Of a DNA stretch of 64,000 bases, positions 53,597 through 58,349 are shown piece by piece. The DNA is from Halopseudomonas oceani (GTDB lineage: Bacteria > Pseudomonadota > Gammaproteobacteria > Pseudomonadales > Pseudomonadaceae): assembly GCF_002903165.1 (NCBI RefSeq), contig NZ_PPSK01000001.1, positions 310,001 to 374,000 on the forward strand. The letters are read 5' to 3'. The position numbers were made by a program, and so were the translations under genes. Under the pieces are notes generated by a model that saw only the letters and a list, made by a program, of their open reading frames with translations, was not told where the DNA came from and made no database searches. Position 1 is the stretch's first letter; each line of letters starts with the position of its first letter.

Positions 53597-54603
53597 AAGC
53601 AATTGGATACTTTGAAGCTGGCGCGCTGGACCGCACCGATGCCCTGATCGACCTGGACGTACCCATGCCTTCGCCCGGCCCGCAGGATCTGCTGGTCAAG
53701 GTCGCCGCCATCTCGGTCAACCCGGTCGACACCAAGATCCGCAGTCGTCGCGGCGCGACCGGCGACACGCCCGAAGTGCTCGGCTGGGACGCCGTGGGTG
53801 AAGTGGTCAGCTGCGGCAGCGCCGTTTCCGGCTTCGCGGCAGGTGATCGGGTCTACTACGCCGGTGCGCTGGAGCGGCCAGGCAGCAACGCCGAATACCA
53901 ACTGGTCGACGCCCGCATCGCCGCCCACGCGCCGCTGTCGCTGTCCGCCGCCGAAGCGGCCGCTCTGCCGCTGACCGCGATCACTGCCTGGGAGCTGCTG
54001 TTCGACCGGCTGGGAGTGCGTGAAGGCGGCGGTGAAGGTCAGGCCCTGCTGGTGGTAGGCGCCGCCGGTGGCGTTGGCTCGATCCTGGTTCAACTCGCTC
54101 GCCAGTTGACCAAACTCACCGTGGTCGCCACCGCCGCCCGCGCCGAGAGCGTGAAATGGGTCAAGGGCCTGGGCGCCCATCACGTCATCGACCATAGCCA
54201 GCCGCTGCTGCCGCAACTGCAGGCGCTGGGTATCAAGGACGTCGAACTGATCGCCTCGCTGACCCACACCGATCAGCACTACCCGCAATACGGCGACTGC
54301 ATCGCCCCGCAGGGCCGCCTCGGCGTGATCGACGACTTCGGCCCGCTCGACATGAGCGTGCTCAAGCGCAAGTGTGCCTCCTTCCACTGGGAGTTCATGT
54401 TCACCCGCAGCATGTTCGAAACCGCCGACATGGCCGAGCAGGGCAAACTGCTGCAACGCGTCGCCGAACTGGTCGATGCCGGCACCCTGCGTAGCACCCT
54501 GGGTGAGCATTACGGCGCAATCAACGCGGCCAACCTCAAGCGCGCGCATGCGCTGCTGGAGAGTGGAAAGGCGCGGGGGAAATTGGTGTTGGAGGGGTTC
54601 TGA
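53593..54603 (+). CDS. Zinc-type alcohol dehydrogenase-like / quinone oxidoreductase family protein
   Basis: MDR-superfamily NADPH oxidoreductase, 336 aa from ATG 53593, overlapping the previous stop (ATGA). N-terminal GroES-like fold (VKVAAISVNPVDTKIR), Rossmann motif VGAAGGVGSILVQLA. The cysteine ligands of catalytic and structural zinc are lacking, so despite the family name it is probably zinc-free. Substrate unknown. Confidence 0.87.
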   Translation: MKAIGYFEAGALDRTDALIDLDVPMPSPGPQDLLVKVAAISVNPVDTKIRSRRGATGDTPEVLGWDAVGEVVSCGSAVSGFAAGDRVYYAGALERPGSNAEYQLVDARIAAHAPLSLSAAEAAALPLTAITAWELLFDRLGVREGGGEGQALLVVGAAGGVGSILVQLARQLTKLTVVATAARAESVKWVKGLGAHHVIDHSQPLLPQLQALGIKDVELIASLTHTDQHYPQYGDCIAPQGRLGVIDDFGPLDMSVLKRKCASFHWEFMFTRSMFETADMAEQGKLLQRVAELVDAGTLRSTLGEHYGAINAANLKRAHALLESGKARGKLVLEGF

Positions 54604-54660
54604 CGGCCTGTGCGCCTGCTATCCAGACTGGCGCTATGCACTGAGCATCGTTCGCACACG

Positions 54661-54734
54661 CGTCATCCTCGCGTAGGCGAGGATCCATCCGTGGTTCAGC
54701 GCAACACTGGATTCCCGCCTGCGCGGGAATGACG
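54661..54734. repeat. CGTCATCCTCGCG / CGCGGGAATGACG inverted repeat pair
   Basis: CGTCATCCTCGCGTAGGCGA at the left and GCCTGCGCGGGAATGACG at the right, pointing at each other about 20 bp apart. The left half recurs within copies A, B and C of the large repeat. Confidence 0.75.
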
Positions 54735-54762
54735 GTGTCTGGATAGGCTGATCGTTATGATC

Positions 54763-54785
54763 GTTCCCACGCTCTGCGTGGGAAT
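54763..54785. repeat. Hairpin repeat GTTCCCACGC-TCT-GCGTGGGAAT
   Basis: 10-bp stem with loop TCT, a dispersed palindrome common in pseudomonads. A neighbour with the same loop but a different stem (GGACGC-TCT-GCGTCC) lies about 25 bp further on. Confidence 0.75.
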
Positions 54786-54822
54786 GTCTGTCAGGACGTG
54801 CCTGTCAGGACGCTCTGCGTCC

Positions 54823-55133
54823 GGCTCGCTGCCCTATCACTACGTCATCCTCGCGTAGGCGAGGATCCATGGGGCTCGTGCATGCCGGCCACTTCGGCGC
54901 CGCCTGATAACCCGTCTTTCGCCTTCACGGCGAGCCAAGGGGGGCCGCTTGCCCGGCCCCCCTTGGCAATCCCCCCGGGCACCCGACTACGCGGCCCTTC
55001 GGGTTCGCTGCGTTGCTCGATTTATCGGGGAGCCACAAAACTCGGCTCTTCGAGCCTCAGACATCCTGTGGCTCTTTTTCCCGATAAATCTGCGCTACTC
55101 GCCCGCGTAAACGGGGAGTGGGTCCGTGCATGC
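54823..55133. repeat. Large structured repeat, copy A
   Basis: About 310 bp. Shares with copy B (56956-57260) the stretches GGCTCGCTG, CGTCATCCTC, CCTGATAACCCG, TTTCGCCTTCACGGCGAGCC, a GC hairpin AAGGGGGGCC/GGCCCCCCTT, ACCCGACTACGCGGCCC, GGGTTCGCTGCGTTGCTCG, and CTACTCGCCCGCGTAAACGG. Between the last two lies a variable region with an 11-bp outer stem GATTTATCGGG/CCCGATAAATC (55019-55029, 55080-55090), an inner stem AGCCACA/TGTGGCT (55031-55037, 55067-55073) and an apical hairpin GGCTC-TTC-GAGCC (55044-55056). Confidence 0.8.
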
Positions 55134-55218
55134 TTCACCTCTGGCTGATTCGCATCTCTCCGTGGGGCCTGTGACGTCGTGCGCGACGCTGGTTCAGGCG
55201 GGGTATTGGATGCCGCAC

Positions 55219-55238
55219 GGTCACAGCATGCTGTGACC
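55219..55238. repeat. 20-bp perfect palindrome
   Basis: GGTCACAGCATGCTGTGACC. A related palindrome, CACGGCATGCCGTG, lies at 55297-55310; the A/T pair flanking the GCATGC core is replaced by a G/C pair. Confidence 0.75.
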
Positions 55239-55296
55239 CTACGACTGGCCATGCCACGGCGCCGCCCGCCAACCTTCTCCACCACGTGCGTGGGGG

Positions 55297-55310
55297 CACG
55301 GCATGCCGTG
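55297..55310. repeat. 14-bp perfect palindrome
   Basis: CACGGCATGCCGTG, second member of the palindrome family seen at 55219. Confidence 0.7.
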
Positions 55311-55437
55311 GCCGTGACATTCTGCTACGCCCATCCGATGCCGCAACCCTCCCGTCTTGCCCATGCACCAACACGGTGCTAATCTCGTCAAGTCGTCAAA
55401 CGGCGACTTTTCGTTTTTACCTGTCCAGAGTGACCGC

Positions 55438-55587
55438 ATGTCCACTGCCCAGACCACCGCTGTTGTAAACCGCCCCGCGCTTGCCGGTGTGGTTGCGCGT
55501 GTGCAGGCTGCCGTGGCCTGCCTGCCGGTCACCCCTCCCGGCGTAGCCATCGTGGTTGCCGTGGCTTCACCGCCACCAGCGCACTGA
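55438..55587 (+). CDS. Val/Ala-rich short ORF, possible leader peptide of the EamA gene
   Basis: 49 codons from ATG 55438 (begins MSTAQTTAVVNRPALAGVV), GAGTG-type ribosome site upstream, stop 82 bp before the EamA start. About one fifth of residues are Val, clustered as GVV, GVAIVVAVA, then PPPAH at the end. The Val-rich make-up recalls leader peptides of branched-chain amino acid operons. It does not resemble a folded protein. Translation is not proven. Confidence 0.4.
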   Translation: MSTAQTTAVVNRPALAGVVARVQAAVACLPVTPPGVAIVVAVASPPPAH

Positions 55588-55645
55588 TCCCGTTACCCCT
55601 TTTCTGATTTCTGTTCTCCCTGACTGGCGTCACGCCGTAGGGCGA

Positions 55646-55663
55646 ACCTGTGTCCTGACAGGT
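55646..55663 (+). promoter_or_regulatory. Hairpin covering the EamA ribosome-binding site
   Basis: ACCTGT-GTCCTG-ACAGGT; the right arm contains AGGT of the ribosome site AGGTGA just before ATG 55669. Folding would hide the site. Another small hairpin, GGCG-TCA-CGCC, lies just upstream. Confidence 0.45.
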
Positions 55664-55668
55664 GACAT

Positions 55669-56526
55669 ATGTTTATTCAACGTTTGAACTGGGCCGCCAT
55701 TGGCCCGACTGCGCTGTTCGTGCTGCTCTGGAGCGCGGGCGCGATCTTCTCCAAATGGGGGCTGGAACACGCCTCCGCCTTTGCCTTCCTGCTGCTGCGC
55801 TTTGTACTGGCCTGCGCTGCCCTCGGGCTGCTGGCGCTTACCCGGCGGCGCTGGCTGCCGGCGCGCGGTACCCGCAAGCAGGTAGCATTGGTCGGGGTAC
55901 TGCTGACCGGCGGCTACACCATCTTCTACCTGCTCTCGCTGGACGCCGGGCTCACGCCGGGCGTGCTGGCAACGGTACTGGGCGTGCAGCCGATCCTCAC
56001 CCTGATGCTGGTCGAACGCCGCGCCAACCTGCTGCGGGTATTGGGTTTGCTGTTGGCGCTCGGTGGCCTGACGCTGGTGGTGCTCGACAGTCTGCTGGCG
56101 GCGCGCTTCTCGCTGCTGGGTATCGGCCTGTCGCTGGCAGCACTGCTGTGCATCACCCTGGGTTCGATCTTCCAGAAGGGGATTCAGCAATCACCCATGG
56201 ACGTACTGCCGCTGCAATACGCCATCGGCCTGCTGATGTGCGCGGTGGTCGTACCCTTTCAGCCGTTTGACGTGGAATGGAGCGTCGGCTTTATCGTTCC
56301 GCTGCTGTACATGGGCGTGTTGATTTCGGTCGGTGCAACCCTGTTGCTGTACCGGCTGATTCGGATGGGCAATTTGGTCAATGTGACCAGCCTGTTTTAT
56401 CTGATGCCCGGCTGCACCGCGTTGCTGGATTTCCTGTTCCTGGGGAATCGGATGGCGGCGTTGAGTCTGTTGGGGATGGGGGCGATTGTGCTGGGGTTGG
56501 TGTTGGTGTTTAGGCCGCGTGGTTAA
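55669..56526 (+). CDS. EamA/DMT-family transporter
   Basis: Ten-helix inner-membrane permease of the drug/metabolite superfamily, 285 aa, two EamA repeats (about residues 10-145 and 155-283). The first repeat has FVLLWSAGAIFSKWGLEHA. Likely an exporter of amino acids or similar small metabolites; substrate unknown. The 3' end shifts to G-rich wobble (TTGGGGATGGGGGCG), and repeats of the CGTCATCCTC type begin 50 bp after the stop. It stands alone between the two large repeats. Confidence 0.88.
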   Translation: MFIQRLNWAAIGPTALFVLLWSAGAIFSKWGLEHASAFAFLLLRFVLACAALGLLALTRRRWLPARGTRKQVALVGVLLTGGYTIFYLLSLDAGLTPGVLATVLGVQPILTLMLVERRANLLRVLGLLLALGGLTLVVLDSLLAARFSLLGIGLSLAALLCITLGSIFQKGIQQSPMDVLPLQYAIGLLMCAVVVPFQPFDVEWSVGFIVPLLYMGVLISVGATLLLYRLIRMGNLVNVTSLFYLMPGCTALLDFLFLGNRMAALSLLGMGAIVLGLVLVFRPRG

Positions 56527-56551
56527 TCCAGCGCCCGTGCTCGGATAGCCC

Positions 56552-56640
56552 CGGCTCGCTGACCCTATCGCCGCGTCATCCTCGCGAAGGCGAGGATCCA
56601 AGCGTGCTCTGAGGCACCACTGGATTCTCGCTTTCGGAAA
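56552..56640. repeat. Partial copy C of the large repeat family
   Basis: GGCTCGCTG followed by CGCGTCATCCTCGCGAAGGC, like the left edges of copies A and B, then a degenerate CTGGATTCTCGC. The structured part is absent. Confidence 0.65.
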
Positions 56641-56689
56641 TTAATCTTTTCGCAGCGGCGCATCCTACCTCGCATCGCGCGATGGCAAG

Positions 56690-56893
56690 CTAGTGCCTCC
56701 GCCGATTCGACTCAAAAGCGCTTGTTATCAGAAGCACTTTAGTTTTTTTCTTGCGCTTGCTGCCTGCCCTTGCTCTCAGCTTGGCTTTAGCTAAACGCCG
56801 TTCTTGGCCCTTTTTTAGCACGTATGCTTCGGCTTCCTGCCTCGTAAGTTGGGGTTCGTTTCGGAGCAATTGCTCTATCTTCTTCTCCCACAC
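56690..56893 (-). CDS. Small basic hypothetical protein
   Basis: 67 aa from GTG 56893, with a good GAGGGA 7 nt upstream. N-terminal half is helical and charged (EKKIEQLLRNEPQLTRQEAEAY); the C-terminal half is very basic (RRLAKAKLRARAGSKRKKK), suggesting nucleic-acid binding. Base composition is lower in GC than the core genes. I do not recognise it. Confidence 0.5.
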   Translation of the reverse strand: MWEKKIEQLLRNEPQLTRQEAEAYVLKKGQERRLAKAKLRARAGSKRKKKTKVLLITSAFESNRRRH

Positions 56894-57422
56894 AGTGCTG
56901 TCCCTCGATTAAGTGTGTAGTTTACTAATATCCGTCAGCCGCGCTCGGATAACCTGGCTCGCTGTCCCTATCACCACGTCATCCTCTCGAAGGCGAGGAT
57001 CTAAGGGGCTCAGTGGTTACTTCGGCGCTGCCTGATAACCCGGCTTTCGCCTTCACGGCGAGCCAAGGGGGGCCGCTTGCCCGGCCCCCCCTTAGCGATC
57101 CCCCGGGGCACCCGACTACGCGGCCCTGCGGGTTCGCTGCGTTGCTCGGGCTGACGGGGAGCGGCAGAACTCGTCGCTACGCTCCTCAAACAGGCTGCCG
57201 CTCTTTCTCCCGCCAGCCCTGTGCTACTCGCCCGCGTAAACGGGGATTGGGCGTGCACGGCTCCAAGTTGGTTGCGATACAGAGTAGTCGAGCCTGCTCT
57301 ACTGAGTCATAACACGAAATTCGGGGGTTGGAAAAATTTAGCATAGATAGCAATATGTAATCAGAAAGGATTACAGCTAGGCTTTAATCTTGGATGCAAG
57401 CCATCAAAGGAGTGATCTTAGC
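56894..57422. other. Intergenic tract with large repeat copy B and an AT-rich promoter region
   Basis: 529 bp. Most of it is copy B of the large repeat (56956-57260). The last 160 bp become AT-rich and must hold the promoter of the gene at 57423; TTGGAA at 57328 is a candidate -35 but no clear -10 follows. Frames within the repeat (with GGPLARPP-type peptides) are not believed to be genes. Confidence 0.7.
56956..57260. repeat. Large structured repeat, copy B
   Basis: Same order of conserved blocks as copy A. In the variable region the outer stem is GGGCTG-A-CGGG / CCCG-C-CAGCCC (57148-57158, 57209-57219) and the inner stem AGCGGCAG/CTGCCGCT (57060 offset excluded; 57160-57167, 57195-57202). 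Compared with copy A the primary sequence differs but pairing is kept at nearly all positions. Confidence 0.8.
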
Positions 57423-58349
57423 GTGACAGTGTTACGAGCGAAAAATTTTATTTCTAAATTCTGCCAGAATAAGAAGCTGAGGCTTTTTGCGGACATTGTA
57501 ATTCTTATATCAACCTCTTATTTGATGTTAAAAAAGCTGTCTGGGTTCTCTTTGACAGGTTGGCTAATAAATAATGCATTTCATCAGCCGCTTATAAATT
57601 TCTTTGTGGTGGTTTCGGTAGCGGTTATCATTTTCTGCGTAATAATAAAGATGGTGACTATATATTTTGATGCCTTTCCGCCGTTAAATCATGGGTTAGT
57701 CGAGCCAGACGAAATTTCTAACTGCTTGTATCGTATAAATAGTGAGGTCGGTGAGCATGTAAGCAGGTGCTCGGCAGACGAAAATCTCGATATTCGCTCT
57801 ATCTGCGAGCAGCATGGCTTTAAGGTTAATGCTGCTCTTATCGTTGATTCCCTAGCAGAGCATATCCGGAAGTCGATAAAGAACATTAAAGTAAAGCGCA
57901 AGGATTTGTTTATATCTCTTTATTGTGTGAATGAAGAAAGTGGGTGTCTAGAGTATATGCTTCATTACGATTCGAAAAGAGATCTGGTGGAAACGAAAAG
58001 CATCAGTTTGAACTCGGAAAAATACCAAGAGTATGAAAGTGTAAAGTGTCTCCGGTCGAACAATACTACCGCTTGCGTTCTAGACAAGAAGCGCTATGCT
58101 AAAGGTGCTTCTAAAAGGCACAAGACAATTGAGCATTACATAGGCTGTAAGCTTTCTTCAGAGCATAAGGTTTTTGCGTTTTTAAATATAGAGTTTCACA
58201 ATAGTGCGATTTTTCCTGAGGAGTCTGACATGCAGGACTTTCTTGAAGAGCATGTCTATCCGTTTAAGCTTTTGCTTGAATATCAGTTTTTAAAGAAAGA
58301 GTTTTTCTCGCATCTGAAAAGTCTTGATGAATATAGGAGGGTTGCATGA
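57423..58349 (+). CDS. Two-TM membrane protein with possible GAF-like C-terminal domain, unknown function
   Basis: 308 aa from GTG 57423 (AAAGGAG lies about 10 nt upstream; a TTG at 57390 is an alternative). Two hydrophobic helices, one in the stretch LFADIVILISTSYLMLKK and one in FFVVVSVAVIIFCVIIKMV, then about 210 soluble residues. The end of that part (HYIGCKLSSEHKVFAFLNIE, then a short acidic stretch and a final helix) has the look of a GAF fold, but this is only an impression. Codon use is AT-rich, unlike all core genes here, so recent transfer is likely. It is translationally coupled to a 58-aa ORF. Confidence 0.7.
   Translation: MTVLRAKNFISKFCQNKKLRLFADIVILISTSYLMLKKLSGFSLTGWLINNAFHQPLINFFVVVSVAVIIFCVIIKMVTIYFDAFPPLNHGLVEPDEISNCLYRINSEVGEHVSRCSADENLDIRSICEQHGFKVNAALIVDSLAEHIRKSIKNIKVKRKDLFISLYCVNEESGCLEYMLHYDSKRDLVETKSISLNSEKYQEYESVKCLRSNNTTACVLDKKRYAKGASKRHKTIEHYIGCKLSSEHKVFAFLNIEFHNSAIFPEESDMQDFLEEHVYPFKLLLEYQFLKKEFFSHLKSLDEYRRVA

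Follow-up and report, generated by a model that had tools for sequence, protein, structure and literature searches.

In a 64,000-nt stretch of the Halopseudomonas oceani genome (contig NZ_PPSK01000001.1, positions 310,001 to 374,000; hereafter the window, of which positions 54,823-57,422 are the part shown), two copies of a structured intergenic repeat lie on either side of a gene for an EamA transporter: copy A sits between a zinc-dehydrogenase gene and the EamA gene, and copy B follows the EamA gene. Both are given on the + strand of the window, which we call the listed strand, and they are same-strand singles, not an inverted pair. Scored with a covariance model of the family (R1, described below), the core of copy A spans 54917-55115 (237 bits) and that of copy B 57045-57244 (217.6 bits); the flank conservation profile, from which we took the unit length, carries the conserved ends of copy A about 20 nt further to the left and about 30 nt further to the right. 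An initial annotation of this DNA had described a repeat of about 300 bp. The repeat is real, but the family's unit is 200-250 bp, and the similarity that the two copies share upstream of about 54890 comes partly from a smaller repeat that is also present at 56550-56602.

Read in the listed direction, each copy comprises five hairpins in the order H1 to H5: H2 is GC-rich, H3 is a prediction, H4 is long, has two storeys and carries the variable stems, and H1 and H5 are small. In copy A, H1 (TCGCC/GGCGA) occupies 54919-54933 on the + strand, as do all features given here; its GGCGA(G) has an alternative partner in CTCGCC at 55098-55103, which in the consensus fold makes a closing helix that shows no covariation. 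H2 follows at 54934-54967 (arms 54934-54947 and 54954-54967), and H3, at 54985-55014, is predicted from the consensus fold, with no pair changed on both sides. H4 spans 55019-55090, where both sequence and covariation support it: its outer arms lie at 55019-55029 and 55080-55090, its middle arms at 55031-55037 and 55067-55073, and its tip at about 55039-55063. The constant pieces between these variable stems are the boxes AACTCG and CTCAGACA around the tip and, between the storeys, a one-sided bulge (CTTTTT, 55074-55079). H5 (CCCG-CGTAAA-CGGG, 55102-55115) is conserved in the family alignment. In copy B, H4 spans 57148-57219, with outer arms at 57148-57158 and 57209-57219 and middle arms at 57160-57167 and 57195-57202. 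Both copies fold more stably than shuffled sequence (z -7.1 for copy A and -3.1 for copy B; 0 of 200 shuffles equally stable for each).

Both copies and both variable stems are thus where they had first been placed, and the description of about seven changed pairs with one A-C mismatch is fair: between A and B, both partners are exchanged in four outer and two middle pairs, all of which remain Watson-Crick, and the other differences are one middle pair gained and one outer pair turned to A.C. The flanking hairpins that had been named as conserved are so in the family alignment, with the qualification that the GC-rich stem, although kept, covaries as well. The short open reading frames that cross A and B do not make the repeat a coding sequence, as the stems change pairwise and the family contains single-base and 14-nt indels; the 14-nt insert (ACCTCGCCGGCCAC or its reverse complement) occurs in either orientation near the base of the middle stem, in the left arm of H4, in some copies (L060-L077, L038-L057).

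R1 was built from an alignment (A1) of 59 copies from nine genomes, namely 59 of 64 trimmed copies after removal of the five cut by contig ends; copies from one further genome (G031) were left out as near-duplicates. The model, whose construction had been proposed with the original description, finds many matches in the window's own genome (40, several of them fragments of a single copy that is cut by a contig end or split by an insertion) and in three relatives (27 in G034, 30 in G033 and 46 in the third). By DNA similarity, the family is present in 10 of the 58 genomes searched, the window's own included, and all 10 belong to the same genus. At the level of the class, 35 of 274 sampled genomes and 32 of 222 genera match R1 at E <= 1e-4, in a survey that scored nine candidates per genome and whose E-values are rough. 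An exact pattern scan, which may omit records very close to the window's genome, found the repeat in Halopseudomonas pachastrellae, H. aestusnigri, H. sabulinigri, H. xinjiangensis, Pseudomonas abyssi and P. neustonica, and also in one metagenome-assembled genome from the Pseudomonadaceae and one labelled Rhodobacteraceae.

Across these copies, the sequence of the stems is nearly free and their complementarity is constrained. In A1, the covariation score is 0.267, against 0.126 for shuffled and at most 0.059 for slid alignments, and 18 of the 46 modelled pairs have changed on both sides; the closing helix and the H3 helix show no double-sided change, and both rest on prediction. Among 41 distant matches from 29 loci, in an alignment that is fitted to the structure, 39 of the 46 pairs have changed on both sides, and the score is 0.468, where shuffled alignments give 0.124 and slid ones no more than 0.088. 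A reading free of such fitting, in which the outer arms are taken at fixed offsets from the conserved boxes, covers 65 of 70 distinct distant hits (five could not be parsed) and gives 396 Watson-Crick cells out of 455, where 200 shuffles gave a mean of 131.6 and a maximum of 157. In all 65 distant copies, the bases immediately below the CTCG/CTGCG boxes form a Watson-Crick pair, and all four pair types occur there. Pairing is likewise kept in the 137 Halopseudomonas-type copies (2 of 139 could not be parsed), in which the GC-rich H2 covaries too. The initial annotation had named loss of the pairing in further copies as a refuting case, and its interpretation survives that test in both sets.

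The covariation is organized by module. Over the 137 copies (117 for terms that involve H2), adjusted mutual information between paired arms is 0.84 for the middle stem, 0.81 for H2 and 0.47 for the outer stem, while neighbours that do not pair are coupled less: 0.29 between the left outer and left middle arms (5 nt from each other), 0.39 and 0.41 between the tip and the middle arms, and 0.23 between the right middle and right outer arms. Restriction to the main lineage (96 copies; 76 for H2) gives 0.89, 0.78 and 0.42 for the middle, H2 and outer arms and 0.16-0.26 for adjacent modules. Coupling between arms tracks the fold, not distance. Orthologous sites give the same picture: in 17 orthologous copy pairs with at least 120 bp aligned in both flanks (some loci enter more than one pair), the outer stem differs in 14, one of which (L058/L221) is an artefact of reading offset, and the middle stem differs in 9. 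At several of these sites a whole stem allele has been replaced by another that also pairs, and relatives hold other stem alleles at the sites of copies A and B, where five relatives that lack the family have the same gene pair with no repeat. We infer that copies at different loci exchange stems, in addition to ordinary compensation. Plain duplication with drift leaves unexplained why paired arms are coupled beside uncoupled adjacent modules, and to this extent the first interpretation of the covariation, as selection on the fold beyond mere duplication, holds. It is not pure proof of selection, because a mutational mechanism that perfects palindromes could add to the signal. Since the stems are exchangeable modules, part of what had been read as compensatory base change is whole-stem replacement instead of stepwise compensation.

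A strand that folds is expected to tolerate G.T(U) better than A.C. On the listed strand, A.C outnumbers G.T among distinct arm pairs in Halopseudomonas (58 versus 12) and in the distant outer stem read at fixed offsets (28 versus 3). As A.C on one strand is G.T on its complement, the reverse complement is the likelier folded strand, and probably it is the one that folds. This asymmetry points to a strand and does not choose between RNA and single-stranded DNA; the overall scarcity of wobble pairs would suit DNA somewhat better than RNA, without deciding between them. Structured RNA or single-stranded DNA element, the choice offered in the initial annotation, is still the right pair of options, with the complement of the strand quoted there now favoured.

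Copies are placed between genes, mostly at gene 3' ends, and avoid both genes and promoter gaps. With genes called by the codon-usage script of this analysis, none of the 139 distinct Halopseudomonas-type copies falls within a predicted gene, and the 99 that have both neighbours occupy 62 convergent gaps, 24 tandem gaps in the direction of the gene, 11 tandem gaps against it and 2 divergent gaps, whereas all gaps of at least 60 bp in the same loci (n = 340) include 74 convergent and 76 divergent ones. The 44 distant copies are distributed similarly (21 convergent, 15 tandem with the gene, 7 tandem against, 1 divergent), with two hits in predicted genes. Tandem gaps combined run 39:18 in the direction of the gene (15:7, not significant, for the distant copies alone); as the copies are related, p values for orientation and similar counts overstate independence. 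The listed strand tends to follow the gene, and the folded strand would therefore be antisense there.

In other genera, copies that lie close together are mostly inverted. In eight distant genomes (105 matches), neighbours less than 450 bp apart comprise 17 tail-to-tail pairs, 1 tandem pair and no divergent pair (17 of 18 inverted), and the tail-to-tail gaps are regular: one genus has eight such pairs, seven with gaps of 52-54 bp and one with a gap of 358, and another genome has gaps of 44, 44 and 60. In one dimer (G286) the outer ends carry long matching inverted sequences by eye, and those in G169 match more loosely. The partners need not be alike, as in each of four tail-to-tail pairs read in G033 one partner belongs to a second type with a T-rich H2. 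Composite copies, 15 of them at seven loci, occur in a single genome (G002); each carries a second repeat, about 270 bp long, at the same fixed point behind H2, and this repeat is found in either orientation. The inverted pairs and the composites fit a mobile inverted dimer and exchange between copies, without proving recent movement. The second repeat itself (L231-L242; L220, 4778-5258 and 8692-9156; L072) has long inverted ends and also stands alone at many loci. The T-rich H2 module (..TTTCTTTTGGTTACTTTTCTTTGG..CAAAGAAAAGTAAC) is found, too, in records from Aeromonas, Pasteurella, Burkholderia and Pseudoalteromonas (L222-L225). These occurrences suggest a wider superfamily, because by eye the Aeromonas and Pasteurella modules adjoin other large inverted repeats.

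Among known systems, bacterial miniature inverted-repeat transposable elements (Correia, ERIC, YPAL and the like) are short, non-coding, present in high copy, intergenic and strongly folding, and the repeat shares all of these traits; it differs in that its stems are free rather than conserved. Long matching inverted ends are seen by eye in one dimer only, and the five sites aligned show no clean target duplication. With Rfam RNA families it shares conserved loops beside covarying stems, yet a scan of 54500-57500 on both strands gave five matches (best E 0.31), all far below gathering scores and none beyond chance. The six motif strings for which we searched occur in none of the open-licence papers covered, a scope that excludes subscription papers and supplements, so an earlier description may exist. 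By keyword, the nearest literature consists of papers on repetitive extragenic palindromic (REP) sequences, REPINs and stem-loop families, among them PMC3116915, PMC2267715 and PMC3733652. There, REPINs are described as inverted doublets with preferred spacing that form hairpins in single-stranded DNA or RNA, in which compensatory changes are common and of which singlets are remnants (PMC3116915); REP units measure 20-40 bp, and GTAG- and CGTC-tagged palindromic repeats form head-head and tail-tail dimers, mostly 20-100 bp apart, including heterodimers, in intergenic DNA (PMC3733652). Judged by these descriptions, the repeat shares with REPIN and REP doublets its dispersed extragenic copies and compensatory hairpin changes, the latter seen in A1, in the 41 distant matches and in the 65 distant copies, and it forms inverted doublets in the distant genomes, though A and B are same-strand singles and G034 has one inverted pair among 27 matches; unlike them, it has ends of about 200 nt with several nested hairpins that assort as separate modules, no conserved GTAG tag and no linked REP-associated tyrosine transposase (RAYT). 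The tagged repeats, for their part, have tail-tail dimers, heterodimers and intergenic placement in common with it (PMC3733652) but, as described there, are palindromes of 20-40 bp with a terminal tag, whereas the repeat, with a core of about 200 nt, is some five times as long, and among distant copies its CTAC/GTAG position is variable (it is kept, for example, in one of the first four alignments printed). We think that the repeat may work like a REPIN, even though it departs from REPs in size and tag.

On balance, we lean slightly towards the view that the repeat is one end-unit of a non-autonomous, mobile, large-REPIN-like DNA family, which would originally have been an inverted dimer in which a short centre separates two multi-hairpin ends, each about 200 nt long, with singles such as A and B derived from it. 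As to recognition, strand chemistry and mobilisation, we infer that the reverse complement of the listed strand would fold as single-stranded DNA, and that a protein encoded elsewhere would recognise the unpaired boxes (CTCG/CTGCG, AACTCG/CTCAGACA) from their sequence and the stems from their shape, and would spread the copies. Selection would then keep pairing and not sequence, copies would survive where they are least harmful, and recombination between copies would swap hairpins. A bolder version, which we advance only tentatively, sees an element of nested hairpin cassettes exchanged as whole paired units and widespread in gammaproteobacteria, a mobile nucleic acid that may act via one strand, would pass on its shape and not its sequence, and would have dedicated exchange or binding machinery.

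Several observations weigh against the reading as a mobile dimer whose complement strand folds. In the distant outer stem, 15 of the 28 A.C cells fall at one position, without which the ratio is 13:2; the middle stem in the fitted distant alignment leans the opposite way (G.T 13 versus A.C 3), and the same stem read from anchors in 49 copies, at the offset that gave the best pairing and limited to copies in which four or more of six pairs form, has G.T 2 and A.C 0, too few wobbles to tell. A measure of further pair types shows no excess over shuffles in A1, and there is no consistent replication-strand bias (the two genomes counted gave 19:8 and 15:15). In Halopseudomonas, single copies prevail: the 30 matches in G033 include six tail-to-tail pairs (gaps 86-93) plus one divergent pair, and the 27 in G034 include one tail-to-tail pair. 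Five sites aligned for the empty state gave no clean empty site or target-site duplication, other repeats occupying or flanking the gaps, and the spread of the composites could be conversion rather than movement. Finally, no mobilising protein was found. A Y1 transposase-like subtype occurs in 7 of the 10 carrier genomes, in one conserved gene neighbourhood (L260-L266); a BLAST search of the fetched surroundings of these seven carrier-restricted genes, the only Y1 genes covered, found no repeat, and the subtype is absent from G033, a genome with 30 matches. (In G034 and G022 its HUH motif is MPNHA, and the gene of G022 contains a stop.) Reverse transcriptases show no link: 5 of 10 carriers have them, as do 11 of 27 non-carriers.

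Other explanations were weighed as well. Were the repeat a structured non-coding RNA transcribed from the reverse-complement strand, with protein-bound conserved loops and with its many copies serving dosage or repeated recruitment, conserved unpaired boxes beside covarying stems and a wobble asymmetry favouring one strand would be natural; but RNA helices usually hold more G-U pairs than the outer stem of the distant copies, where even the favoured strand shows wobble in just 28 of 455 cells, that strand is antisense to its neighbours in 39 of 57 tandem gaps, and in 54500-57500 there is neither an Rfam match nor a sigma-70-like promoter (only 0.9 expected by chance), so we regard this explanation as unlikely. 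A transcription terminator or 3'-end stabiliser would suit the position of the copies at gene 3' ends and the run of at least four T in the H4 bulge of 91 of 137 Halopseudomonas-type copies; the conserved stem followed by a U-run of an intrinsic terminator is nevertheless not seen, as only 13 distant copies out of 51 have TTTT in the 30 nt that follow the tip box, and several flanks already carry a hairpin with a T-run by eye, which makes such a function very improbable.

The two remaining explanations, which strike us as about equally improbable, concern how the stems arose and what moved them. Template switching in quasi-palindromes perfects palindromes by mutation and needs no selection for the fold; near-perfect Watson-Crick stems with free sequence, and whole stem alleles that differ at orthologous sites, are what it would leave, yet such copying would erase asymmetry, and the one-sided bulge and the hairpin boxes persist, while the wobble asymmetry is unpredicted by it. 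If, instead, a RAYT-type Y1 transposase encoded in the genome moved the repeat, making it a REPIN in the strict sense, the inverted doublets and the compensatory hairpin changes would be of the kind reported for REPINs (PMC3116915), and the restriction of the Y1 subtype to carriers speaks for it; on the other side stand a unit of about 200 nt against the 20-40 bp given for REPs (PMC3733652), a GTAG tetranucleotide that is not conserved at the hairpin foot, and the absence both of repeat copies around the seven Y1 genes and of the subtype from G033.

Carriage by phages or plasmids was also considered and rejected. The type 1 repeat has no plasmid match (the phage collection was not searched with type 1); a type-2 piece found no phage but matched 12 records of the plasmid collection, with roughly a quarter of the piece aligned, and R1 gave no match in the four of those 12 records to which it was applied. 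The one exact type-1 match among viral contigs (L268, IMGVR_UViG_3300001458_000031) is probably a piece of Halopseudomonas chromosome, that is, host DNA, because it carries the 3' flank of the copy A site and sequence from the EamA side. It shows one difference from H. pachastrellae in about 220 bp of 3' flank, yet its H4 hairpin is wholly different, which may reflect misassembly or ectopic recombination at the repeat; these are indistinguishable because the left flank belongs elsewhere.

Two further features of the locus may be noted. The smaller repeat mentioned above lies at 54659-54734 and 56572-56636, and also at 54819-54871, 56550-56602 and 56953-57005; it reads GTCATCCTCGCG..CGAGGATCCA, joined in part by GATTCCCGCC..GGGAATGAC to form an inverted doublet, and resembles an ordinary REP or REPIN, and short matches related to it recur across the genus. 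Directly after copy B, a 319-aa reading frame (57390-58349) has no Pfam match, and this stretch is probably acquired DNA because its GC content is 39% among neighbours of 60-66%.

The repeat, which has matches in 32 of 222 sampled genera, shows unusually cleanly how a fold can be conserved while its sequence is nearly free, and its arm-coupled, module-shuffled pattern makes structural selection separable from ordinary duplication and conversion. If it is an RNA, it would represent a large undescribed RNA family. If it is mobile, it would extend the REPIN idea from units of 20-40 bp to multi-hairpin ends of about 200 nt, and the stem variants that occur naturally, dozens in each genome, could help to find the protein that recognises them.

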